From: Desulfobacteraceae bacterium
Lineage (GTDB): Bacteria; Desulfobacterota; Desulfobacteria; Desulfobacterales; UBA11574
DNA: 17,922 bases
Assembly: GCA_029857875.1 (NCBI GenBank)
Contig: JAOUGB010000008.1
Coordinates: 1 to 17,922, forward strand
Reading direction: 5' to 3'
Under the pieces are notes generated by a model. The model was not told the DNA's origin. It saw only the letters and a program-made list of their open reading frames with translations, and ran no database searches. Positions 4,026 to 16,855 of the stretch are shown here, one piece after another. The position numbers and the translations under genes were made by a program. The number at the start of each line of letters is the position of its first letter. Position 1 is the stretch's first letter.

Positions 4026-4054
4026 CAGCGCCCGTTTTGTGGGCGTTTTTTTTT
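4026..4054 (+). terminator. Rho-independent terminator downstream of sppA
   Basis: The stem CGCCC (4028-4032) and GGGCG (4040-4044) enclose a 7-nt loop, followed directly by ten T residues (4045-4054). A flanking G-U pair and an A-U pair can extend the stem. The orientation fits ending a + strand transcript. The nearest + gene upstream is sppA, about 200 bp away with the palindromic element between. The terminator also insulates the convergent - strand gene that ends at 4064. Confidence 0.8.
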
Positions 4055-4063
4055 ATTCAATTT

Positions 4064-4672
4064 TTACTCAAAAACACTCACATCCCCCAAACCCTTTCGG
4101 ATGATTTCCGGGAGATCATCGATCAGGGATATGACACTCGAAGGGTGCCCTGTAACAGGGCCTCCGTCGATAACCACATCTATTCTATGTTGGAAAAAAT
4201 CGTGAATAAGAGAGGGATCATAAAGAATTGTCCCATCCGGCATTGTAGCGCTCGTCGTGATAATGGGATTTCCCAAAGCTTGGACCAGAGAAAGACAAAT
4301 CCGATTGTCAGGCACGCGAATACCAGCTGTTTTTCGATTGGTTAGCATGATTTTTGGAACTAGTTTCGAACCCTCCAGAACAAACGTGTAGGGGCCCGGA
4401 AGAAGCCGTTTCATTGTTTTATACGCATAATTTGAAACTTTTGCGTAATAGCTGATATTTTTTAGGTCCGAACAAATAAAGCTAAAAGGCTTGATTTTTT
4501 TTCGTTGTTTTAACTGGTAGATCTTTTCTATGGACTTTTTGTTCATAATATCACAACCGATTCCGTAATATGTATCGGTTGGATAGGCGATGATGCCGCC
4601 TCTTTTAAGTACATCAACCACCTTTGTTAGGAGTCGTTCCTGGGGGTTTATGGGATTTATTTTAAAAATCAC
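4064..4672 (-). CDS. Sua5/YciO/YrdC-family protein (YciO-like threonylcarbamoyl-AMP synthase homologue)
   Basis: The YrdC fold forms L-threonylcarbamoyladenylate from threonine, bicarbonate and ATP for the t6A modification of tRNA; YciO members are paralogues with less certain activity. The N-terminal block GGIIAYPTDTYYGIGCD (about residues 25-41) is the family signature. It is followed by KIKPFSFICSDLKNISYYA, LLPGPYTFVLEG, AGIRVPDN and TTSATMPDG. The KPFSFIC-type segment is closer to YciO than to TsaC, which has a different K-x-R region. The 202-residue length is normal for the single-domain form, without the Sua5 C-terminal domain. The start is GTG at 4672, supported by AAGGA 5 nt upstream on the - strand. 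The gene is convergent with sppA and transcribed alone. Family confidence is high; the exact activity is uncertain. Confidence 0.88.
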   Translation of the reverse strand: MIFKINPINPQERLLTKVVDVLKRGGIIAYPTDTYYGIGCDIMNKKSIEKIYQLKQRKKIKPFSFICSDLKNISYYAKVSNYAYKTMKRLLPGPYTFVLEGSKLVPKIMLTNRKTAGIRVPDNRICLSLVQALGNPIITTSATMPDGTILYDPSLIHDFFQHRIDVVIDGGPVTGHPSSVISLIDDLPEIIRKGLGDVSVFE

Positions 4673-4806
4673 GGCAATCCTTATTTACTAATGCCAGCCC
4701 AAAAATATTTTTTGTCGCTCATATGTCGCAACGCATCAACCACCAGGTGATGGTCTATAGATATTTATCATAAAAGCTAACAATTTAGCCTTTTGAAAAC
4801 ATTATC

Positions 4807-5078
4807 GCTTCAAGTATATTTAAATTTTTGCTGCAAGATCGCGCCAAAGGCGGATAAAACTCGTGAATAAGAGATAGTAATGAAAGAACCTGCCCGGGCT
4901 ATTAATAAAAGCCTATATTTATACAGGCGGTTTCATCCATAAAATTAAATCGCCGATAGTTCTTTCAAAACGATCCCTAATCCTCCCGAGGCGGACAAGT
5001 CCACTCGGACAGCTTCCAGTCAAAAATTTAAATATACCTGAAGCTTCTTTTAAACCGATTTGTTTCAAGGGACTAAAC
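4807..5078. repeat. Inverted-repeat element, copy A (upstream of guaB)
   Basis: Twenty-four-base ends at 4807-4830 and 5021-5044 are inverted repeats with a single mismatch (GCTTCAAGTATATTTAAATT side versus its complement). A nested inverted pair, TGAAAGAAC and GTTCTTTCA, lies inside. The left 54 bp (4807-4860) align without gaps to 6831-6884 downstream of guaB with about nine mismatches. The segment 5035-5078 aligns without gaps to 7111-7154 with eleven mismatches, continuing past the right inverted repeat. The middle parts differ. No open reading frame of note lies inside. It occupies much of the 667-bp gap before guaB. Confidence 0.7.
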
Positions 5079-5133
5079 TATTATCATAAAATATGGAAAG
5101 ATGTATTTATTACAGGCACCGGTATAATGTCAA

Positions 5134-5145
5134 GGCAGCGCTGCC
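5134..5145. promoter_or_regulatory. Perfect 12-bp palindrome near a TATAAT box upstream of guaB
   Basis: A consensus TATAAT (5123-5128) is followed 5 bp later by the perfect palindrome GGCAGCGCTGCC (5134-5145) and then GTGTTTTT. No good -35 lies upstream of the TATAAT. The palindrome could be a dimeric regulator site overlapping a transcription start, or a weak GGCA/TGCC stem with a T-run behind it. It lies about 195 bp before the guaB start. The assignment is tentative. Confidence 0.3.
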
Positions 5146-5259
5146 GTGTTTTTCGTTAATAAGTTTATATATTTGTTAAAAAAGACAGAAATTCAAATGG
5201 TTACAATAGATAGCGCCGCCCGTCCTAATAAAGATTGCAAAAGATAAATCTATTTGTTA

Positions 5260-5268
5260 TGCGATACT
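5260..5268 (+). promoter_or_regulatory. Candidate extended -10 promoter for guaB
   Basis: TGcGATACT at 5260-5268 matches an extended -10 with one substitution in the hexamer, about 70 bp before the guaB ATG at 5340. A TTGCAA (5235-5240) is too far upstream to pair with it at standard spacing. The form TGc-TAxACT recurs before the sirtuin gene, which mildly supports it. Confidence 0.3.
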
Positions 5269-5339
5269 ATCTTACTCAAGTTTAGTGCCCGAATATTGCT
5301 AAAAAGCCTTATTTGAAACAACGATTGATGGAGGACCCC

Positions 5340-6803
5340 ATGAAAAAAATACCGCCTGAAGCGGCGTTTTCTTTTGATGATGTTTTATTGCTCCCGGGCT
5401 ACTCAGATGTTTTGCCGCGAGATGTTGACACCCGCTCTTATTTAACAAAAAATATTGCATTGAACATTCCTCTTGTTAGTGCAGCTATGGATACCGTAAC
5501 CGAATCAAGAACTTCCATAAGCATGGCCCGCGAAGGCGGAATCGGTTTTATCCATCGAAATCTGAGTATTGAAAGTCAATCGATTGAGGTTGACAAGGTG
5601 AAAAAATCTGAAAGCGGTATGATTGTCGATCCGGTAACCATTCATCCGGATCAGCTCGTCCATGAAGTGTTACACCTGATGAATAAATATCGCATTTCAG
5701 GGGTTCCGGTGACCAAAGGAGACAAGTTGGTAGGCATTGTGACGAACAGAGACCTGCGATTTGAGACAAATCTCGATAAAAAAATTTCCGAGGTCATGAC
5801 AAAGGAAAATCTTGTTACGGTTTCAGAAGGGATTACCCTGGAAGATTCCAAAAGTCTGCTGCATAAACACAGGATCGAAAAGCTTCTGGTGGTTGACAAC
5901 AAAGATCGTCTGGTCGGAATGATAACGATAAAAGATATTGAAAAAGTAAAAAAATATCCAAATGCCTGTAAGGATAAGCTGGGAAGACTCAGGGTAGGAG
6001 CTGCCGTGGGAGTGGGGCCGGATATGGAAGAACGCGCAGAGACACTTTTGCGAGCGGGTGCTGATGTTATTCTCATTGATACCTCCCATGGACATACTAA
6101 AAATGTGATTGAGGCTGTCAAAATATTAAAAAGCAATTTCAAAAATATCGAACTGATTGCAGGGAATGTGGGTACGGGGGAAGGGGCTGAAGCGCTGGTT
6201 AAGGCAGGTGTGGATGGTGTCAAAATCGGAATTGGACCTGGATCAATTTGCACGACACGTATTGTAGCGGGTGTCGGCGTTCCGCAGGTTACAGCGATCA
6301 TGAATTGCACCGCGGTATCCAAGAAAACAGGCATACCTTTGATTGCAGACGGTGGCATAAAATTTTCAGGGGATGTGACAAAAGCGCTTGGCGCCGGTGC
6401 CCACGTGGTGATGATCGGAGGGCTTTTTGCCGGAACTGAAGAGAGTCCGGGAGAGCTTGTTATTTATCAAGGCCGCAGTTACAAAGCCTATCGGGGTATG
6501 GGATCCATAGAAGCCATGCAGAAAGGGAGCAGAGACAGATATTACCAGGATGAAGATTTCCAAGGCGACAAAATGGTCCCGGAAGGTATCGTCGGCCGGG
6601 TACCTTACAGAGGAAAACTGGCGGACAATATTTTTCAGCTCATCGGCGGATTAAAGGCGGGTATGGGATATGTGGGATGTTGTACTCTGGATGAACTCAG
6701 AGAAAAGGCTCGCTTTATAAAGATAAGCGCAGCAGGTCTGCGTGAAAGCCATGTTCATGATGTGATCATAACCAAAGAGGCACCAAACTATCGTCTCGAC
6801 TAG
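5340..6803 (+). CDS. guaB: IMP dehydrogenase
   Basis: This enzyme oxidises IMP to XMP with NAD+, the committed step of GMP synthesis, in the cytosol. The 487 residues match the family length. The N-terminal [17 protein letters not shown] opens the TIM barrel. Two CBS motifs are inserted at about residues 90-205 (for example [20 protein letters not shown] and [20 protein letters not shown]). The catalytic cysteine is Cys304 in [18 protein letters not shown], close to E. coli Cys305. The flap region [20 protein letters not shown] is complete. The start is ATG 5340, because GGAGG (5330-5334) lies 5 nt upstream; longer in-frame starts at 5313 and 5328 lie before or on that site. No guaA follows. 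Related inverted-repeat elements flank the gene on both sides. Confidence 0.97.
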
Positions 6804-6830
6804 GGTTTAATGCAACGTTGACAATTGATC

Positions 6831-7154
6831 GCCTCAGGTATGATTAAATTTTTGCTGAAAGATCACGCCTGAGGCGGATAAAACTTGAACCAAATTGAAA
6901 ATTGACGATTGAAGATTCACAGTATCGCCCTGCTCTGTCTTTTCATTGATAAAATTGAAAGAATTCCTTAAATATTCAATCCCTGGCCCAGACCTGATAT
7001 AGTCTGCGTAGATGCTTATGCCGTGTCATGTGAACTAATACAGCACCATCAATATTTATCAATTAAGTCGCACCCGGGGCAGGCTTCAATCGAAAATCAT
7101 CAATCGTATGTACCTGAGGCTCCATTAACATCAGTTTGTTTCAAAAACCTAAAC
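6831..7154. repeat. Inverted-repeat element, copy B (downstream of guaB)
   Basis: The ends GCCTCAGGTA (6831-6840) and TACCTGAGGC (7111-7120) are a perfect 10-bp inverted pair, and CCTGAGGC recurs at 6868-6875, giving a local hairpin at the left end. The left 54 bp match copy A at 4807-4860, and 7111-7154 match 5035-5078, in the same orientation. The interior differs in sequence and length from copy A and contains its own inverted stretches of the ATTGACGATTGAAG type. It fills most of the 391-bp guaB-dnaE gap; no gene is seen there. Confidence 0.65.
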
Positions 7155-7194
7155 AGTTACGGATTCCTTATTCATAACAATACATATTCATAAA

Positions 7195-10100
7195 ATGACT
7201 CAAGCATCATCTCAGTTTGTACACCTTCATGTCCATACCCAATACAGTCTTTTAGATGGTGCTATCCGGATCGATCCCTTGTTAAAGCGTGTCGCCGATT
7301 TTGACATGGACACTGTGGCGATTACCGATCACGGCACCATGTTCGGAGCGTTTACGTTTTATGAAAAGGCCAAAAAAGCCGGAATAAAACCGATTATCGG
7401 TTGCGAATGTTATCTGGCGCCGAGACGTCATACCGACAAAACCCCCCTTGATAAAAGCGGACTTTCACATATCATCCTTTTGGCGGAAAATCAGGAAGGA
7501 TATCGAAATCTATGCAAACTGGCAACCATAGCCCAGCTTCATGGATTTTATTACAAACCCCGCATCGATAAAGAACTTCTAAAACACCACAGTAAAGGGC
7601 TTATCGGCCTGTCAGCATGTCTTCACGGTGAAATTCCAAGGCTGATTCAGGAAGGTCGAATGGATAAAGCCGACGAAGCTGCGCGTGATTACCTTAATGT
7701 TTTTGGTGAAGGGAATTTTTTTCTGGAAGTTCAAAACAACGGTATCGATATTCAGGAGTCGGTAAACCGAGCACTGCTGGATATGAGTCAAAGACTTTCC
7801 ATTGGGCTGGTTGCTTCGAACGATTGTCATTATCTCGACAAAGAAGATGTCCGTGCCCACGATGTTCTGTTATGCGTTCAGACCGGAAAGACGGTTCATG
7901 AAACGGATCGGCTCAAATTCAGAACCGATCAACTCTATCTAAAATCTAAAGCAGAGATGTATGACGCTTTTAAGGATTATCCGGGGGCACTTGAGAACTC
8001 CGTGGATATCGCCAGGCGCTGCAACCTGAAATTCGACGTTAAATCCTATCACTTTCCGAAATTTGATGTTTCATCAGACCATAATGTGGATGAGATTTTT
8101 GAGCAAAAGGTCAGGGATGGATTTAGAACCGTTATGGAAAACGTAAAGAAGAAAAACCCGAATGCCGATAAGAGGCTTTATAATAATCGAATTGAAAATG
8201 AAATCGATGTCATTAAAAGCATGGGTTTTTCAGGTTATTTTTTGATTGTGGCCGATTTTATTCGCTACGCCAAAAACAACGGTATTCCTGTTGGGCCCGG
8301 AAGAGGGTCTGCCGCCGGAAGTCTTGTGGCCTATTCTCTTGGAATTACCGATCTGGATCCCATCGAGCACGGTCTTATTTTTGAACGCTTTCTCAATCCT
8401 GCCCGCAAAAGCATGCCGGACATTGATGTCGACTTTTGTATCAACGGCAGAGAGGATGTCTTTAAATATGTGGTTGAAAAATACGGCGGAGGAGATTTTG
8501 TCGCCCAGATCATCACATTCGGGAAACTGAAAACCCGGGCCGTTATTCGTGATGTCGGCCGCGCTTTGGATATACCCCTTAGTGAAGTGGATGCCATCGC
8601 TAAAATGGTGCCCGATGTGTTGAACATCGGTCTTGATGATGCCCTCGAACAGGAGCCCCGGCTTAAAGATTTGGCAAAAAAGAAGCCTGAAATTGCCGAT
8701 CTTATCAGTGTTTGCCGCGTATTGGAAGGGCTTCCAAGACATGCTTCGACACATGCTGCGGGCGTTGTCATTGCAGACAAACCACTGGTGGAATATATGC
8801 CCCTTTATAAGGGTAAAAAAGGCGAGGTCGTTACCCAGTTCGACATGAAATGTGTTGAGAAGATCGGCCTTGTCAAGTTTGATTTCCTAGGTCTTCGCAA
8901 TTTAACCGTGATTGCAAACACTCTAAACCTTATCGCTGCCCAAGGGGGCACACCTCCGGATCTTTCAAACCTCGATTTTAACGATACTGACACGTATCAT
9001 CTACTTGCTTCCGGTGAAACAACAGGTGTATTTCAGCTGGAAAGTTCAGGCATGAAAGATTTGTTGGTGAGACTGAAACCGGAAACCTTCGATGATGTCA
9101 TCGCACTGGTTGCGTTATACCGACCAGGCCCCTTAGACAGCGGAATGGTTGATGATTTTGTTGAAAGAAAGCATGGGAAGAAAACAGTGGAATACATTGT
9201 TCCCCAGCTTGAACCGATTTTGAAAGAGACATACGGGGTTATTGTTTATCAGGAACAGGTGATGAAAATTGCCGGTGACCTGGCCAATTATTCCATGGCC
9301 GAAGCCGATGATCTTAGAAAGGCCATGGGGAAGAAAATTCCTAAGATTATGGCCATGCATCGGGAACGTTTTATGCAAGGGGCGTCAAAAAACGGCATCC
9401 CTTCCGACAAGGCCGGAAAAATATTTTATCTCATGGAAAAGTTCGGGGGATATGGATTCAACAAATCCCATAGTGCGGCATATGCGCTGATAGCATATCA
9501 GACCGCTTTTTTAAAAGCGCATTTTCCGGTAGAATTTATGGCCTCATTACTGACCAGCGAGATGCATTCAACAGACGGTGTTGTCAAATATATCGCTGAA
9601 TGTCGGAGCTACGGTATTGAAGTATTGCCTCCGGACATCAATGAAAGCGGGAAAGAGTTTACCGTCACCGGTTCAAAGATAAGATTCGGACTGGTTGCAG
9701 TGAAGAACGTTGGAGAAAATGCCATTGAATCTATTATTGAGGCCCGGCATAATGGAAAGTTCTCATCTTTGTTTGATTTCTGTGAGCGAGTCGACCTGAA
9801 AAAAGTAAACAAACGTGTTGTTGAAAGCCTTATTAAATGTGGCGCATTTGATACTACGGGAAATTATCGTTCACAAATGATGGCATCTTTGGAGAACTGC
9901 ATTGATTACGGACAGCGCGTTCAAAGAGAGAGGACGGATCCTCAAATGGGGTTGTTCAATCTAACTGAAGAACAAAAAGCCATTAACTTGCCGTCCATGC
10001 CTGAAATTGGCGAGTGGGATGAAAAAGAGCTTTTAACCCTTGAAAAAGAATCACTTGGGTTCTATATCACCGGGCATCCATTAAGCAGGTATGAAAATGT

Positions 10101-11038: not shown

Positions 11039-12181
11039 ATGAAAGTACCTTTGCTAGATTTAAAAGAACAGTATAAAACCATAAAAAAAGAAATCCTGGA
11101 AACTGCTGAAGAACTTTTTGAAAGCCAATATTTTATCTTAGGACCCAGGGTGGCGTCTTTAGAAAAAGAGATTGCCGATTATTGTTTTTCAAAGCATGCC
11201 GTCGGTGTGTCATCCGGGACAGATGCCCTTTTGATTTCTTTGATGGCAATGGATATCGGTGTTAAGGACACGGTGATCACCACGCCGTATACCTTTTTTG
11301 CCACAGCCGGAAGCATTGCCCGAACCGGTGCAAGACCGATTTTTGTCGATATTGATCCCAAAACATATAATATTTCTCCTGAGTGCCTTGAAAGCGCCAT
11401 CGATTCCATGTCCCGAACGGAACTTGAGAGGCTCAAGGCGGTCATTCCGGTTCATCTTTACGGCCAGTGTGCCGATATGGCGCCGATCCTGCAGATATGT
11501 GAAAAGTACGATCTCGTTATTATTGAAGATGCTGCCCAGGCTATCGGATCAGAATACAGAGGAAAGCGGGCGGGGTCCATGGGGGATTTCGGCTGCTTTT
11601 CATTTTTCCCTTCCAAGAACCTGGGCGCTTTTGGGGATGGCGGCATGGTTACAACAAATTCAGACGATTTCTATGACAAATTATGTACGCTTCGGGCACA
11701 TGGTTCCCACCCCAAGTATTATCATAAACTTATCGGTGGAAACTTCAGGTTGGATGCATTTCAAGCAGCCGTGGTTTCCATAAAGCTAAAATATCTTGAC
11801 CAATGGACAGAAGCACGTCAGAAAAACGCCAAAAATTACAGAGCGCTTTTTAAACATGCAGATCTTGAGGATGTGGTTCAGCTTCCGTTTGAAAAAGAAG
11901 ATCGCCACATCTACAATCAGTTTGTGATCCGTGTAAAGGAAAGAAGAGACGACCTTCGCGGGTTTTTAAATGATTCCGGAATCGGGACGGAAGTGTATTA
12001 TCCGGTTCCCATGCATCTCCAGGCCTGCTTTTCTGATTTAAATTATAAAAAAGGTGATTTTCCTCAAGCTGAACATGCGGCCTTGCACACGGTGGCCCTG
12101 CCCATTTATCCTGAACTTTCAGATGATCAGATAGAATATGTGGTGGAAAATATAAAAGCGTTTTATTTGAAGAAGAAGTGA
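11039..12181 (+). CDS. DegT/DnrJ/EryC1/StrS-family PLP aminotransferase
   Basis: Members of this fold-type I family transfer an amino group from glutamate or glutamine to keto-sugar nucleotides for surface polysaccharides, or to related substrates. The family opening VPLLDLKEQYKTI is followed by FILGPRVASLEKEIADY, SSGTDALLISLMA (PLP phosphate contact), TPYTFFATAGSI, PVHLYGQCADM, EDAAQAIGSEY and the PLP-lysine motif FFPSKNLGAFGDGG with Lys193 as the predicted Schiff-base residue; LRAHGS follows. The 380-residue length is typical. The nearest ribosome-binding-like sequence (AGGATGG) lies rather far from the ATG. No other sugar-nucleotide or glycosyltransferase gene lies nearby, so the substrate cannot be inferred from context. 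It is the last housekeeping-like gene before the accessory region. The 310-bp stretch that follows (12182-12491) holds no gene I recognise. Confidence 0.92.
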   Translation: MKVPLLDLKEQYKTIKKEILETAEELFESQYFILGPRVASLEKEIADYCFSKHAVGVSSGTDALLISLMAMDIGVKDTVITTPYTFFATAGSIARTGARPIFVDIDPKTYNISPECLESAIDSMSRTELERLKAVIPVHLYGQCADMAPILQICEKYDLVIIEDAAQAIGSEYRGKRAGSMGDFGCFSFFPSKNLGAFGDGGMVTTNSDDFYDKLCTLRAHGSHPKYYHKLIGGNFRLDAFQAAVVSIKLKYLDQWTEARQKNAKNYRALFKHADLEDVVQLPFEKEDRHIYNQFVIRVKERRDDLRGFLNDSGIGTEVYYPVPMHLQACFSDLNYKKGDFPQAEHAALHTVALPIYPELSDDQIEYVVENIKAFYLKKK

Positions 12182-12457
12182 AATCACTTACCTGTATGTT
12201 TCCTGCCTGCCGGGCTGTATGTCAGACGTATCGCAGGTTTTTGATCTGGATGATATTTTTACCTGAGCGCAGGATATCACGGATCTGAGCAAAGGAGAAT
12301 CGGAGAATAAACTGGTATCCTTTTCTCGTATTCGATTTCTGCTTATCGTATTGTGAATTCTCCAGACATGATCAACAATCCAATAATTCAACTTGCCCTC
12401 ATTCCTGTATCATGGCAGGATTATTTAAATCAAAATCATTCAAGTATTTTTACAGTA

Positions 12458-12527
12458 TGCTACACTATATTCGAAATAAAAGGGAATAAATATGGATAAA
12501 GATCTGGACCAAAGGATTCAGACCTTG
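12458..12527 (+). repeat. Direct repeat, left copy: duplicated sirtuin gene 5' region
   Basis: This stretch contains an extended -10-like TGcTACACT (12458-12466), a GGGA ribosome-binding run, and an ATG followed by 12 codons encoding MDKDLDQRIQTL. It aligns to 15931-16008, the 5' region of the intact sirtuin gene. The first 27 coding bases differ at a single position; the upstream part is more diverged and 8 bp shorter. Both copies are in the same orientation, 3.4 kb apart. Confidence 0.8.
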
Positions 12528-12623
12528 CTGAGAAAATGTCCGCTTCGCGGAAATATTCTAACAATGAAAATAATCAATTTTTCAGACCTGTCTAGGCGGA
12601 ATGCATTCAGGCTCATAGGCTGA
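12492..12623 (+). pseudogene. Orphan 5' fragment of the sirtuin gene
   Basis: An ATG-started 43-codon frame begins MDKDLDQRIQTL, identical over 12 residues to the start of the sirtuin encoded from 15973, and then loses all similarity (LRKCPLRG and onward). Its stop at 12621-12623 lies inside the 3' end of the convergent radical SAM gene. Because the match covers promoter, ribosome binding site and start codon, this looks like a truncated gene copy and not a chance motif. The unrelated tail is probably meaningless. A short hairpin TCCGC-TTC-GCGGA follows just after the break. It marks the left border of the 3.4-kb cassette. Confidence 0.7.
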
Positions 12624-13373
12624 ATTGTATGAAAGGCCTGCCTTTATCAATCGTTCCTCCACCGTTCCGTAAAGCACGAGCTCTTCCACCTCGAAGTCTT
12701 CGAAATCTTTATGGATCTCCCTGAGCCTCCTCTTAAAATCTTTGATGTTTTCAGGACTCGAGAAACTGACCATGACCGCTGGATGCGTGGCCACATTAAA
12801 GCGAACCAGATTTTCCAAGGCCCCCAATTGTAGTCCGAAGCCTGATGAATCTGCTCCGGTCAACCGGGAAAATTCTGCCTCTCCGGTCCCCTTCACGCTC
12901 ACCCGAACGTAGAGGTTTCCAAACCTGGATAGATCCCGGGCATAGGTTGAGTCATGCCCAATCAGGATACCATTGGTCTCAAGAATAAAGCGGATATCTC
13001 CCGGAATCTGCTCAAGGACATGGAGAAGATGATCCCTCGCTAGGGTCGGCTCGTTCCCGCTGATCCTGACCTGTCTGAACCCCTTTTTGTAGGCAATGGT
13101 TGTTAGCCTCCCGGCCACCTGCTGTGGCGAATAAAACTTGCCGTATCGGCCAGGCCTCACGACCTTGTCCCAAGACCAGCAGAACAGACAGCGGAGACAG
13201 CACCCGAGGCAGTCTGCGGTTCCAATCCCTCCATAGAATCTGGCCGGTCGGAAACGGTAATACTTTCTCTTATTGCCCTTGCACACGATCTGGGCTGTCT
13301 CTTCAGCTCTCTCTATTGGATCGTAAAATTTATTGATTCCATTCCCAATATGGCCTGAATCCGCGTTTAACAT
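12582..13373 (-). CDS. Radical SAM domain protein, function unknown
   Basis: Radical SAM enzymes use a [4Fe-4S] cluster to cleave S-adenosylmethionine and start radical chemistry. The 263-residue protein has the cluster motif C58-x3-C62-x2-C65 within CCLRCLFCWSWDK, with extra cysteines at 55 and 59. SGNEPTLARD (105-114) stands where many members have GGEP (SAM amino-group binding). LETNGILIG (131-139) and VRVSVKGTGEAEFSRLTG (156-173) resemble activating-enzyme-type radical SAM proteins. No SPASM or other auxiliary cluster domain is obvious at the C-terminus. The ATG at 13373 has AAGGGAA (13387-13381) 7 nt upstream on the - strand. It is divergently transcribed from the second radical SAM gene (start 13512) across 138 bp, so shared control is plausible. 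I do not recognise the substrate. The closest overall style is that of activases of glycyl-radical or related enzymes. Confidence 0.85.
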   Translation of the reverse strand: MLNADSGHIGNGINKFYDPIERAEETAQIVCKGNKRKYYRFRPARFYGGIGTADCLGCCLRCLFCWSWDKVVRPGRYGKFYSPQQVAGRLTTIAYKKGFRQVRISGNEPTLARDHLLHVLEQIPGDIRFILETNGILIGHDSTYARDLSRFGNLYVRVSVKGTGEAEFSRLTGADSSGFGLQLGALENLVRFNVATHPAVMVSFSSPENIKDFKRRLREIHKDFEDFEVEELVLYGTVEERLIKAGLSYNSAYEPECIPPRQV

Positions 13374-13511
13374 GATCGAATTCCCTTATGAGTCATTTTA
13401 CATTGATTCTGATTTGTGATCAAATAGAGAAAATAAATCTTTTGCTCTTTCATTCATTAAGGGAGGCACTTAGATTAATTTTCATATTATAGCAAAAGTA
13501 TTTTCTTTGAA
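13374..13511. promoter_or_regulatory. Divergent intergenic region between two radical SAM genes
   Basis: This 138-bp AT-rich region must hold the promoters for both flanking genes. On the + side a TATTAT (13485-13490) lies about 22 bp before the ATG, without a clear -35. A strong GGGAGG at 13461-13466 is too far upstream to serve the + strand start at 13512 and has no obvious start codon of its own behind it. On the - side the ribosome binding site AAGGGAA for the leftward gene is clear. No strong operator palindrome was found. Confidence 0.45.
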
Positions 13512-14564
13512 ATGGCCGAAGAAATCACAATTCAATTAAATGATGAAAGCTTGAAAGTCCCTTCTGGCATAACGGTCAAGAAGGCTCTCCAATTGAGCGG
13601 ATATAAAGTAACAAAATTCCCTGAAAAAGAAGCGCTATTTGTACCTTGTGAAGTGGGTGGATGCTGGAGCTGCGCTGTTCTCATTGACGGAGAATCCAAA
13701 CCGGCTTGCAAAACTCCCGTAAGGGAAGGGCTTCTCATAAATACATCATTACCGGAAAAACATCAGCCGAAAAGGATCATTCATGGCTTCACAGGACACT
13801 CGGTCGGTGGCGTGGGGACACCCTGGAGATTAAAGCATGTCCACACATACATTGAGGTCGCCTGCTTTGCCTCAGGGTGCAATTTCCGCTGTCCTCAATG
13901 TCAGAACTGGGACATCACATATAATGGAGAGAGCAGTCCCATGACCCCTTCTGAGGCAGCTCAGAGGATGACAGCAGCAAGAAAGAAATTCGGTGTTGAT
14001 CGAATGGCCATTTCCGGTGGTGAAAGCACATTGAACAGGGCGTGGCTCATCGAGTACGTGAGAGCACTTAAAAGTCTTAACCCCAATGCGGATGCCAGGA
14101 TTCATATCGACACGAACGGCTCCATCCTCACAAAGGATTACATTGATGAACTTTTTGATGCGGGTATGACGGATATAGGAATCGATCTGAAAGGCTGCAC
14201 TACGGAAACATTTATGCGAATTACCGCTGTCAAAGAGAGACGGCTGTCCGAGCTTTATCTCTCAACAGCATGGAGTGCTGTGAGATATCTGGCTGAGCGC
14301 TATGAGAATATAATATTCACAGGTGTAGGGATCCCCTATAATGTAAAGTTGATTTCGCTTGATGAGATTGGCCTTATAGGCAAGAAATTATATGAGATAG
14401 ATCCTAAGATCCAAGTCTGCGCCTTGGATTACAGGCCCGAATTTAAGAGGCTCGATCTTCAAAAGCCCTCCTATGACGACATGGTGGAAGTACACAATGT
14501 GCTTAAAGCTGCGGGACTTAAAACCGTTATCTGCCAGACCGAACATGGTCACATCGGTCCTTGA
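13512..14564 (+). CDS. [2Fe-2S] ferredoxin-like domain fused to radical SAM domain
   Basis: The 350-residue protein joins two redox modules. Residues 1-75 form a beta-grasp ferredoxin-like domain with cysteines 46, 51, 54 and 66, spaced C-x4-C-x2-C-x11-C. This is the spacing of the N-terminal [2Fe-2S] domain of xanthine dehydrogenase and CoxS proteins. After a linker with an unusual HGFTGHSVGGVGTPW stretch (91-105), residues 113-345 carry a radical SAM domain: the cluster motif C123-x3-C127-x2-C130 in GCNFRCPQCQNW, SGGEST (168-173), and HIDTNGSILT (198-207). This core resembles PflA/AmmeMemoRadiSam-type activating enzymes. The N-terminal cluster probably supplies electrons to the radical SAM cluster (inference). 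No Shine-Dalgarno sequence is seen before ATG 13512, and a stop lies 12 codons upstream in frame, so no longer start exists. It is divergent from another radical SAM gene. The substrate is unknown. Confidence 0.87.
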   Translation: MAEEITIQLNDESLKVPSGITVKKALQLSGYKVTKFPEKEALFVPCEVGGCWSCAVLIDGESKPACKTPVREGLLINTSLPEKHQPKRIIHGFTGHSVGGVGTPWRLKHVHTYIEVACFASGCNFRCPQCQNWDITYNGESSPMTPSEAAQRMTAARKKFGVDRMAISGGESTLNRAWLIEYVRALKSLNPNADARIHIDTNGSILTKDYIDELFDAGMTDIGIDLKGCTTETFMRITAVKERRLSELYLSTAWSAVRYLAERYENIIFTGVGIPYNVKLISLDEIGLIGKKLYEIDPKIQVCALDYRPEFKRLDLQKPSYDDMVEVHNVLKAAGLKTVICQTEHGHIGP

Positions 14565-14568
14565 GAAC

Positions 14569-14590
14569 AAAAACCGATGAAAATTCATCG
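14569..14590 (-). terminator. Likely Rho-independent terminator of the pcm gene
   Basis: Between the convergent radical SAM fusion gene and pcm, the stem CGATGA/TCATCG (14575-14590) encloses a 4-nt loop. Read on the - strand it is followed by GG and five T residues (14573-14569), fitting termination of the leftward pcm transcript. On the + strand no T-run follows. Confidence 0.5.
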
Positions 14591-14620
14591 ATATAGTTCA
14601 TATAACATGCAATATTTCAT

Positions 14621-15316
14621 TTACAAACCAAAGATCCCCCTGAGGTTGACATAAAGCACCTTACAAATGACCATTCTATCTAAACGCTCTTCGCTTTTTT
14701 CCAGCAAGACAAGCTCCTGAAATTTTTCTCTAATAACAGGTGCAATCAATTTCCCCCCTGTCTTCAGTTGATCTATCAGCGGAGGAGGTATATCCGGGCA
14801 TGCAGCGGTAATACTTATTCTGTCATAGGGGGCCAGCTCCGGATAACCCAGCCCTCCATCGCTCCTAACGAGGACAATATCATTGTAGCCGGCATTTTCC
14901 AGATTCATTTTTGCAAATTCAAAAGTGACTGGGTCAATATCAATGGAGACCACAAGACCCTCGGATCCAACAACCTCTTTCGCAATGGCAGAACCATATC
15001 CTGATCCAAGACCGACTTCCAGGAACTTATGGTCTTTGTCCAGGCCAAGCGGCTCATAAAACAAGGGATAGCTATGAGGGCATGAGATGGTAGATCCTTC
15101 ACCAGGAAGTGGCAGCGGAACTTCATGATAGGCGTAGTCCCTATATCCGGATGGGATGAAAACTTCCCTCGGAACCTTCAGCATAGCCTTCCGGATCCTT
15201 TCTGACTTGAGAAACCCCTGACTACGGAGTTCTCCAACCTTGGCTTCCCTTTCTCTTTTAAATTCTTCATTGCTCTTAATAGGTTTCTTGGGTGGCGGTA
15301 CTATCCAGCCCGGCAT
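14621..15316 (-). CDS. pcm: Protein-L-isoaspartate O-methyltransferase family protein
   Basis: Pcm methylates L-isoaspartyl residues in aged proteins using S-adenosylmethionine, starting their repair. Visible family features are KSERIRKAMLKVPREVFIP (37-55), PLPLPGEGSTISCPHSYPLF (67-86, with the STIS active-site segment), SAM-binding motif I FLEVGLGSGYGSA (98-110), VVSIDIDP (122-129), GYPELAPYDRISITAACPDI (157-176) and LKTGGKLIAPV (184-194). HSYPLFYEPL differs from the more usual MVALM-type segment, so substrate specificity may have shifted. The ATG at 15316 is preferred because AAAGGT (15328-15323) lies 6 nt upstream; a TTG start at 15379 would add 21 residues but has no such site. The resulting 231 residues are close to the usual length. 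It is convergent with the radical SAM fusion gene and lies inside the segment bracketed by the sirtuin direct repeats. Confidence 0.88.
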   Translation of the reverse strand: MPGWIVPPPKKPIKSNEEFKREREAKVGELRSQGFLKSERIRKAMLKVPREVFIPSGYRDYAYHEVPLPLPGEGSTISCPHSYPLFYEPLGLDKDHKFLEVGLGSGYGSAIAKEVVGSEGLVVSIDIDPVTFEFAKMNLENAGYNDIVLVRSDGGLGYPELAPYDRISITAACPDIPPPLIDQLKTGGKLIAPVIREKFQELVLLEKSEERLDRMVICKVLYVNLRGIFGL

Positions 15317-15410
15317 TTTTTTACCTTTATTGCTGTAAAAAGAGGGTTTCAGTTTGATTATCAAGAAATTGATGGACAAAATTATTGAGGAAAATGTCCG
15401 TCCCTGCCCC

Positions 15411-15439
15411 TTGCCTTTTGACTTTTACCCTCGTATAAA
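15411..15439 (+). promoter_or_regulatory. Candidate sigma-70 promoter for the metallopeptidase-like gene
   Basis: TTGCCT (15411-15416), a 17-bp spacer and TATAAA (15434-15439) form a reasonable -35/-10 pair about 35 bp before the ATG at 15474. A TTGACT at 15418-15423 matches the -35 consensus better but leaves only 10 bp to the -10, so it is not preferred. Confidence 0.42.
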
Positions 15440-15473
15440 AGATTTAAATTCTTTCTAAACCGATTTATTTATT

Positions 15474-15911
15474 ATGACAACACAAATTAAAATTGTGCCC
15501 TATGACGGGATGAATAAGGGATTTTTATCTCGGATCCAAACATGGGTGAATGAAGTTTTGGAAAGTGCCGATCCCTTAACTATAACTCCATATCTCAGAA
15601 TAACGATATGGAAAAATATTAAGGATCTCCTGGATTTTTATCACCAGGAAAAGGATGAGCTTGGCATCGTAACTGGCGAAGAATCAGACTTTTTGGCTAC
15701 TCATGAGGCTTGGAGAGGCCACTCAAGGATTCACATATGTCATTAAAGAGTAAAAGGAGTTCAAGATCCCGTTATTGAAGGTGTTTTGCACCATGAAATA
15801 GGACATGCCCTCTTTCATGGAAGCATGGAATTTTATAAGTTTAAATTTACAAATAGACTGCAGGAAGTGGCAAGGCTCAACAGACATAAAGAATCGGTAC
15901 TCAGTTTTTAA
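15474..15911 (+). pseudogene. Zinc-metallopeptidase-like gene interrupted by an in-frame TAA
   Basis: The frame opening at ATG 15474 runs 90 codons and ends at TAA (15744-15746). The same frame then continues, without any shift, for another 54 codons to TAA at 15909-15911. The segment after the first stop contains the zinc-protease motif HHEIGHALFHGS (15789-15824, with HEIGH at 15792-15806). The segment before it ends EAWRGHSRIHICH and reads naturally into RVKGVQDPVIEGVL. A single substitution creating the TAA explains the break; TAA is not a known recoding codon. No good start codon lies between the stop and the motif. The complete reading would be about 145 residues, short for a protease of this kind, so the C-terminus may also be lost. 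I do not know the family's name. It lies directly upstream of the sirtuin gene on the same strand. Confidence 0.75.
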
Positions 15912-15930
15912 CACGAACTTATAATCTGAA

Positions 15931-16008
15931 TGCTATACTGTTATATTATATCCAAAATACTTGGGAGTTAACATGGATAAAGATTTGGACCAAAGGATTC
16001 AAACCCTT
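15931..16008 (+). repeat. Direct repeat, right copy: sirtuin promoter and gene start
   Basis: This is the intact counterpart of the orphan copy at 12458-12527. It holds an extended -10 TGcTATACT (15931-15939), a TGGGAG ribosome binding site (15962-15967) and the first 12 codons of the sirtuin. Conservation of the extended -10, the ribosome binding site and the ATG between the two copies supports all three assignments. Confidence 0.75.
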
Positions 16009-16680
16009 GCCCAATGGTTGTATGAATCTAAGTATCCGGTAGTATTCACCGGGGCTGGGATAAGCACAGAATCGGGGCTCCCGGATTTCCGAGGGCCTGA
16101 TGGATTGTGGACAAGGCGAGATAAGGGACTCCCTCCAACGCCTATGGCAGTCTCATGGCATGACGTTGAACCAAACGCGGGCCATCTTGCAATCGTGGAG
16201 ATTCAGAAGCTCGGGAAACTCAAGTTCTTGGTCTCCCAGAACGTAGATAATCTGCATCTCAAATCTGGCATTAAACCGGAACTTTTGGCTGAACTTCACG
16301 GCAACATTGCTAAGCTCAGGTGCAAAAATTGCGGAAATCTGATCAGCCGATCAGAGGGTTTCAAGCATTGCAGGTGTGGCGGAGAGCTGGTAAAGAGTGT
16401 GGTCGATTTTGGTGAGCCCTTGCCTGAAAAGGACCTTCAACTTTCCTTTGAGCATTCCAGAAAAAGCGACTTGTTTGTAGTAGTTGGCTCAAGCCTGGTG
16501 GTGACTCCTGCAGCTGACATGCCTCGGGAAGCACTCCTTTCAGGGGCCAAACTGGTTATTATTAATCAGGGCAAAACCCCCTTCGATCATAGAGCTTCCT
16601 TGAGATTTCACGAACGCATAGGGGATGTGCTGCCCAGGGCGGTGAAAAGGCTCAAAAAGTTAATGAGTTTTTTCGAGTAG
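15973..16680 (+). CDS. Sir2-family NAD-dependent protein deacylase, SIRT6/7-like
   Basis: Sirtuins remove acyl groups from lysines using NAD+. The motifs are complete: GAGISTESGLPDFRGPDGLW (NAD binding), QNVDNLH, catalytic His109 in AELHGNI, GSSLVV and IINQGKTPFD. Details such as GPDGLWT, then GLPP, LKFLVSQNVDNLHLKSG, LLAELHGN and ASLRFHERIGDVLPR resemble the SIRT6/SIRT7 (class IV) group more than CobB-type class III enzymes, and the class III Tyr-Arg pair is not evident. The zinc site is compact: Cys117, Cys120, Cys133 and Cys135, with only 12 residues between the pairs. The start is ATG 15973, with TGGGAG 5 nt upstream and conserved in the duplicated fragment; a TTG at 15961 is in frame but lies upstream of that site. 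The protein has 235 residues. It follows the broken metallopeptidase gene on the same strand. Confidence 0.93.
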   Translation: MDKDLDQRIQTLAQWLYESKYPVVFTGAGISTESGLPDFRGPDGLWTRRDKGLPPTPMAVSWHDVEPNAGHLAIVEIQKLGKLKFLVSQNVDNLHLKSGIKPELLAELHGNIAKLRCKNCGNLISRSEGFKHCRCGGELVKSVVDFGEPLPEKDLQLSFEHSRKSDLFVVVGSSLVVTPAADMPREALLSGAKLVIINQGKTPFDHRASLRFHERIGDVLPRAVKRLKKLMSFFE

Positions 16681-16684
16681 ATTC

Positions 16685-16704
16685 CCACGGGCTTACGCCC
16701 GTGG
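16685..16704. repeat. Perfect stem-loop (REP-like) after the sirtuin gene
   Basis: CCACGGGC (16685-16692), loop TTAC, and GCCCGTGG (16697-16704) form a perfect 8-bp GC-rich hairpin four bases after the sirtuin stop codon. No T-run follows, so an intrinsic terminator is not well supported. The sequence style is that of REP palindromes or of a transcript-end stabilising hairpin. The remainder of the gap to 16855 shows two similar 10-mers, GGTCCGACCC (16769) and GGTGCGACCC (16807), the second followed by a T-run, and no gene. Confidence 0.55.
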
Positions 16705-16855
16705 TCCTCTGCTAATTATTGATAGACTTATCTCATTATCAAGGAATTTAGTTCAGTTGCCTTGGTCCGACCCAGTCTAAATCATAGTCAAAAATCGATA
16801 AAATAGGTGCGACCCCTTTTTTATTTTAAAATGTGGCTTGATTACAATCCCCCCT

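Follow-up and report, generated by a model that had tools for sequence, protein, structure and literature searches.

Gene organization of the locus

We analysed a stretch of 17,922 nucleotides from a Desulfobacteraceae bacterium (contig C99 of the host assembly G000, hereafter the window), in which the start of a sirtuin gene is present twice, on either side of a block of radical SAM, methyltransferase and peptidase genes. The host assembly comprises 722 contigs and 3.46 Mb and is 87% complete and 6% contaminated. For comparison, 59 relatives were searched for a close sirtuin and a close copy of the radical SAM gene rsam1; the family was represented by 24 genomes including the host, and the same genus by G001 to G004, which are 68–89% complete.

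The genes of the left two thirds of the window were named by eye, up to dnaE and the gene of a DegT/DnrJ-type aminotransferase (degT; 11039..12181, plus strand; PF01041, E 1.9e-120), which serves as the native left landmark. To the right of degT follow a dispersed intergenic repeat, the sirtuin fragment, rsam2, rsam1, pcm, a broken peptidase gene and the intact sirtuin gene; of these, rsam2 and pcm are encoded on the minus strand. The radical SAM proteins have 263 amino acids (rsam2, 12582..13373, minus strand; PF04055) and 350 amino acids (rsam1, 13512..14564, plus strand; PF04055, with an N-terminal 2Fe-2S domain, PF13510), and pcm (14621..15379, minus strand; PF01135, TIGR00080 above cut-off) encodes a protein-L-isoaspartate O-methyltransferase. 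An earlier sequence-only reading had placed these three genes and a broken metallopeptidase between the two sirtuin starts, and this order was confirmed. The peptidase gene (15474..15887, plus strand) is indeed broken, with the correction that the damage consists of an in-frame TAA after codon 90 and then an abrupt end near 15880. It belongs to no family in Pfam or NCBIfam, and the label peptidase is based on an HExxH string seen by eye in its relatives.

The intact sirtuin gene (15973..16680, plus strand) encodes a Sir2-family deacylase of 235 amino acids, which matched PF02146 with 112 bits (E 4.2e-32) against a cut-off of 24. Sir2 proteins carry an NAD-binding GAG...DFRG motif, a catalytic histidine in LHGN and four zinc cysteines; by eye, the translation contains GAGISTESGLPDFRG, AELHGN and CKNC...CRC, as expected of the family. 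Its best relatives show 87% and 82% amino acid identity. A DUF488 gene lies 3' of it, followed by a methyltransferase gene truncated by the contig end.

The start of the sirtuin gene is present twice

The two starts form a direct repeat (D2) in which 12458-12524 aligns without gaps to 15939-16005, with 81% identity over 67 nt at a distance of 3481 nt. The left copy (12458..12527, plus strand) is an orphan sirtuin 5' end with 34 nt of upstream sequence, an ATG at 12492 and 12 codons, and the right copy (15939..16008, plus strand) is the start region of the intact gene, with its ATG at 15973. The first 12 residues, MDKDLDQRIQTL, are identical in both copies (12/12), in agreement with what had been read from the sequence. 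By our own count 31 of 33 nt are identical in the coding halves, both differences being silent, against 22 of 33 in the upstream halves (11/33 differ), an upstream likeness that none of 20,000 shuffles reached.

The two copies had also been credited with common expression signals. By eye, GGGA-type ribosome-binding runs and a TGnTA..T string resembling an extended -10 element do stand at equal offsets in both; the consensus promoter scan listed no promoter at either sirtuin start.

Beyond the 12 matching codons, the reading frame of the left fragment stays open for 31 more codons before a stop; this tail has no significant similarity to sirtuins, and no Sir2 domain was recognized in the fragment. 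An internal deletion, in which the stump would continue into a later part of the sirtuin, was considered because CTTCGCGGAAATATT resembles CTTCACGGCAACATT and was discarded, since 91 of 500 shuffles scored equally. A chimeric origin of the intact gene was rejected as well: positions 420–600 nt are nearer to the sirtuin of L057, but the same part is the best conserved between L057 and L058.

When the left copy with its flank (95 nt) was searched against the host assembly, it matched itself and 15939-16010 (E 1.4e-11), and the next of the 15 matches listed had E 0.53. With two copies only in the host assembly, the repeat is specific to this locus, as had been proposed, and a dispersed repeat as the source of the sirtuin copies is ruled out. 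In the other 23 genomes of the family, a 301-nt query spanning the fragment found no match to the fragment at E <= 0.01; other pieces of that query, 25–27 nt long, matched in G012 and G019.

Public sirtuin genes were compared in the same way. Among 80 loci, 32 starts were compared with either copy (33 rows, from which L143 was dropped as one base out of register and a repeat of L063), and they shared at most 27 of 33 coding and 16 of 33 upstream positions. No compared start is closer to either copy, and the two copies are therefore each other's best match in this set. Duplication of the start is not a habit of sirtuin genes: second matches at E <= 0.01 occurred at 8 of 81 loci, the best with 5e-4 as compared with 9.9e-14 in the window, and among these eight the second match spans the ATG only in L103 (24 nt). 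These 81 come from 83 listed loci, two of which start off their contigs; at least 3.6 kb of upstream sequence was available in 59 of the 83, and three contigs were entered twice (L063/L143, L079/L142 and L074/L141).

The block between the copies is foreign and mosaic

Comparison with the relatives shows that the block between the sirtuin copies is foreign DNA and a mosaic. The rsam2-rsam1 DNA is 94% identical to that of G009, from another genus, and 93% to that of G053, from another family, and rsam1 alone is 92% identical to the gene in G012, again from another genus; the rsam1 protein reaches 89–91% amino acid identity in these three genomes. Synonymous divergence (dS) to the same relatives is 0.15–0.18 for rsam1 and 0.07–0.16 for rsam2. 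For degT it is 0.25 to the same-genus G003 and saturated (4.7) to G009. Neither rsam1 (E <= 1e-10) nor a close sirtuin was found in the same-genus genomes G001 to G004. In an order-level search of 389 genomes, ten including the host carried rsam1 (E <= 1e-70) and five including the host the peptidase (E <= 1e-12).

The pcm gene is also foreign, and its sequence relationships indicate a source other than the radical SAM cluster. Its relative in G005 (partial, at a contig end) is 74% identical, the others among the matches listed reach at most 42%, and a second pcm in the host genome is 36% identical to it.

In G012 and G053 the gene order is peptidase, M54 protease, [rsam2,] rsam1, where rsam2 is not always present, so that the order in the window is rotated; no M54 gene matched in the host assembly at E <= 1e-15. 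Homology of the window's peptidase to its full relatives (277–278 amino acids) ends near 15880, at about the middle of the 278-residue relative. The only copy found in G009 (L176 3315-3716, contig G009:C242) stops at a contig end, 3–5 nt short of the cut in the window, and the remaining half of the peptidase was not detected when G009, which is 98% complete, was searched with the full-length protein. This near coincidence suggests that the peptidase may have been cut before it arrived in the host, a reading made uncertain by the contig ends. A transposase-like gene, named by eye, lies upstream of the peptidase copy in L176.

A cluster that has been transferred is present at the loci L137, L138 and L139. 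It encodes an M54 (archaemetzincin-like) protease together with between one and four radical SAM proteins and, in two of the three loci, a second peptidase; the pieces that the loci share are 90–96% identical in DNA across genera and families. As to the vehicle, carriage of the block by a phage was rejected, as no rsam1 relative was present in viral contigs, and carriage by a plasmid likewise, as 12180-16700 had no match in plasmids. No transposase or integrase was detected among the four block genes scanned, a scan that left out small open reading frames.

The site behind degT and the arrangement in relatives

The site behind degT is plastic. The degT protein is 94%, 93% and 79% identical in the same-genus G003, G001 and G004 and 71–82% in other genomes of the family, and reading of open reading frames indicated that the sequence following degT differs in each of four relatives (G003, G004, G019 and G009). 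A chimeric contig or a binning artefact is very improbable as the source of the arrangement. The assembly is fragmented and incomplete, with the contamination given above, which would favour such an error, but dnaE and degT both show 94% protein identity to the same-genus G003, the assembly contains no second good match to the junction sequences, and a likeness of 81% is too low for a false overlap in the usual assemblers.

Among the 59 relatives a close sirtuin was present in G012, G028 and G053 and a close rsam1 in G009, G012 and G053. Both genes thus occur in G012 and G053, each on separate contigs. Within the family, one of the other 23 genomes has a close sirtuin (G012, 75%), on a contig of 3.2 kb. 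A sirtuin directly behind the aminotransferase and without the block, for which the sequence-only reading had proposed to compare related genomes, was not encountered; the sirtuin and degT of G012 are on different contigs. No sirtuin adjoining the block was found in the DNA of relatives that was read, and in the 80 public sirtuin loci, on contigs that are often short, the sirtuin has neither rsam2 nor a full rsam1 nor a close pcm as its neighbour. Only in this window were sirtuin and block seen side by side. Given the separate contigs and sirtuins that are far more diverged (66–67% DNA identity) than the block, a recent joint transfer is not indicated.

In two of the 80 sirtuin loci, L108 and L130, a 55–57% relative of the full peptidase is located about 6–8 kb upstream of the sirtuin. 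These two loci have the same gene order and count as one case, and we considered this joint presence too weak to use.

Borders of the block and the filler

Homology of the block to its relatives begins at 12579 on the left (G053; in G009, DNA homology to rsam2 begins at 12623) and ends at 15878-15880 on the right (G012 and G053). The sirtuin copies are separated from these borders by about 51 nt on the left and about 58 nt on the right. The left gap is an unassigned filler (12528..12578) that contains a terminator-like hairpin for the minus-strand gene, and the right gap is the equally unassigned sequence between the cut peptidase and the right copy (15881..15938), which has no good match in the family; with 15868-15974 as the query, no E value below 0.014 was obtained in the remaining 23 genomes of the family.

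A 9-nt direct repeat, TTCAGACCT, is found at 12517-12525, at the end of the stump, and at 12581-12589, at the block border. Such a pair at the filler edges appeared in 18 of 100,000 shuffles, in a test devised after the pattern was noticed. The presence of this 9-mer at both edges, the several sources of the block pieces and the variable region behind degT agree with the view that stump and block arrived separately by illegitimate joining, as unrelated debris for which sirtuin homology is irrelevant. We consider this unlikely: the same rare gene start, twice, 3.5 kb apart and in one orientation would then be a coincidence, and 22 of the 23 other family genomes are without a close sirtuin.

Divergence of the two copies

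The contrast between upstream (11/33) and coding (2/33) differences is significant (Fisher p 0.011) and, together with the silent nature of both coding changes, is the pattern of two genes diverging while both worked. The divergence of the copies thus probably preceded the joins, at a time when both were functional genes. The suggestion of the sequence-only reading that the remnant derives from a related gene is supported as well.

The age of the copies was also compared with that of the block, on the premise that copies made at the join should show at most the divergence found between the block and its unjoined relatives. In noncoding DNA, the rsam2-rsam1 gap differs from relatives by 4–6% over 120–139 nt, and the sequence before the peptidase by 6% (G053, 72 nt), 7% (G009, 28 nt) and 14% (G012, 65 nt), and by 19% from a second, more distant copy in G053. 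The probability of at least 11 differences in 33 upstream sites is 3e-7 at a divergence of 5%, 0.007 at 15% and 0.025 at 18%. Over all 66 sites (20% divergence) there is no excess (P 0.18 at 15%, 0.41 at 18%).

These values bear on the possibility that the insertion itself created the duplication, either as a target-site duplication or through a circle with an identical sirtuin piece, followed by drift. Direct copies do flank the foreign DNA on both sides, and the divergence of the whole 66 nt fits the synonymous divergence of the block. This account is nevertheless improbable in our view. With about 51 and 58 nt of other sequence in between, the copies, unlike a target duplication, are not in direct contact with the block; short direct repeats adjoining the ends of the insert are absent, and usual target duplications are far shorter than 67 nt. 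The upstream differences are many at 5% and 15%, though less so at 18%, both coding differences are silent although the left copy would have been a stump from the outset, and the block is not a single element. Of the earlier proposal of insertion or recombination at the sirtuin start, the joining of a foreign block near that start with a remnant left behind is upheld; a single block that duplicated the start is not supported, given the mosaic, the gaps and the seemingly greater age of the copies relative to the junctions.

A probable remnant of a second sirtuin gene

The reading that we favour, with moderate confidence, regards the left copy as what remains of another sirtuin gene after foreign DNA had cut it, within a patchwork in the plastic site behind degT. 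This second gene, closely related to the intact sirtuin gene yet already distinct, would have been present at the site and would have been cut at about codon 12 on the joining of foreign DNA. The pieces of the patchwork were acquired horizontally; one radical SAM/M54-protease cluster would have supplied rsam2-rsam1 as well as the cut peptidase, and pcm came from elsewhere. One join may have been guided by sirtuin homology and the other illegitimate, either by homology-facilitated illegitimate recombination (HFIR) or by single-crossover entry of a circle with a sirtuin piece. A homology-guided and an illegitimate join would together produce the order stump, block, whole gene; a homologous stretch, the sirtuin start, is present on both sides, and the gene order rotated with respect to G012 and G053 would fit a circular or tandem intermediate. 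We propose this homology-guided route only tentatively, at somewhat less than even chances.

Several observations count against the relic of a second gene and the proposed joins. A homology-guided joining might leave a chimeric breakpoint in the intact sirtuin, and none was seen when the gene was scanned. The 9-mer TTCAGACCT is present twice, 64 nt apart, where a simple microhomology join should leave one. No donor, recipient or earlier state was found in the genomes searched. The divergence before the peptidase exceeds that of the rsam2-rsam1 gap, which makes 5% too strict as a lone yardstick, the aligned sites total just 66, and over all of them no excess appears; the divergence test therefore leans to an age before the joins, with a duplication made at the join being less probable.

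A dispersed intergenic repeat near the locus

An intergenic repeat of about 70 nt that begins with TGTCAGACATATCACAGG has one copy in the window, between degT and the stump (12220..12285, plus strand; nhmmer E 3.2e-15 with a model of 39 copies from which the window's copy was left out). Other copies are located at 4037, 6248 and 11925 of L137, at 7356, 9564, 12409, 14024, 15329 and 17952 of L138, and at 513 and 3399 of L139. When 60 genomes were searched with a 24-nt pattern of the repeat, two mismatches being allowed, 22 contained it; the family, with its 24 genomes, accounts for 19 of these. The reversed control pattern occurred in none. An 18-mer of the repeat was not found in the literature searched. 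It may be a mere dispersed intergenic repeat.

A further hypothesis is that the repeat bounds exchangeable modules in the family, in a system that resembles integrons or is served by a recombinase and lacks canonical attC sites, the sirtuin patchwork being one product; we regard this as quite unlikely. Nine contigs with at least two strict copies (23 copies) have them in one orientation per contig, for which our own arithmetic gives a chance of about 6e-5 if orientation were random, and modules between repeat copies recur in other combinations in other genera. On contig G012:C129 six copies separate a peptidase with an M54 protease, rsam1 with a 389-residue protein, a Fic protein, a dehydrogenase-like gene (by eye) and an AbiE pair, with a transposase-like gene (by eye) after the last copy. 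A TCAGAC core opens the repeat, and TCAGACC is present at the stump end (12518) and the left border of the block (12582), as module exchange would have it; CAGACATA at the peptidase cut (15881), its sole occurrence in the window, fits too. On the other side, dnaE likewise contains TCAGACC, at three positions, and ordinary genes also lie between repeat copies, which counts against the hypothesis. The ends of attC sites read RYYYAAC and GTTRRRY; the repeat begins with GTCAGAC, one base off GTTAGAC, and a matching left partner was not seen by eye in 40 nt. An integron integrase (TIGR02249) was present in 14 of the 31 genomes searched, and none scored above cut-off in the host assembly at its 87% completeness. 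An RNA element was rejected, as the window, L137, L138 and L139 gave no Rfam match at gathering scores and three copies of the repeat did not fold clearly better than shuffles. If the repeat were a true recombination site, it would name a gene-exchange system in these bacteria and would matter more than the scar.

Other sequences were noted in the window as well. The noncoding segment 17401-17483, in the gap between the DUF488 and methyltransferase genes, shows 76% identity to a sequence that adjoins a copy of the repeat in G007 (L187) and is perhaps a worn flank of the dispersed repeat. A hairpin, CCCACGGGCTTACGCCCGTGG, at 16684-16726, 3' of the sirtuin, recurs in L061 about 6 kb from the sirtuin there and is probably a common palindromic repeat. 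Further intergenic repeats, D3 and D5, surround guaB (4672-5313, 6803-7195) and are shared with the same-genus G001.

Comparison with known systems and significance

HFIR is documented, as are single-crossover duplications in E. coli, where single crossovers in sequenced clones duplicated 109–950 bp of the homologous locus (PMC3240628). The locus resembles HFIR, in which homology at one end of the incoming foreign DNA is combined with illegitimate joining of its other end; that work was experimental with known donors, whereas here the process is deduced from one contig, with diverged copies and no known donor. For the arrays of orphan immunity genes at type VI loci of Vibrio cholerae, an HFIR-like process was proposed by the authors (PMC5361080). 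There, too, older genes give way to incoming modules and persist next to them as remnants, but the process is recurrent at one functional locus, and in the window there is a single 5' stump of an enzyme gene that shows no indication of being kept by selection. For small variable segments in E. coli, illegitimate recombination was held likely for most (PMC2884548); that survey stays within three species, whereas our comparison spans different species, genera and families and concerns a segment of about 4–5 kb.

The locus looks like an ordinary scar of DNA exchange and not a new kind of mobile element, and for most readers it will represent ordinary genome plasticity. It illustrates, within a short stretch, how uncultured Deltaproteobacteria take up foreign genes into their genomes, and the scar retains the start of a lost second gene copy, which gives hints at the earlier content of the site and at the positions where it was cut.

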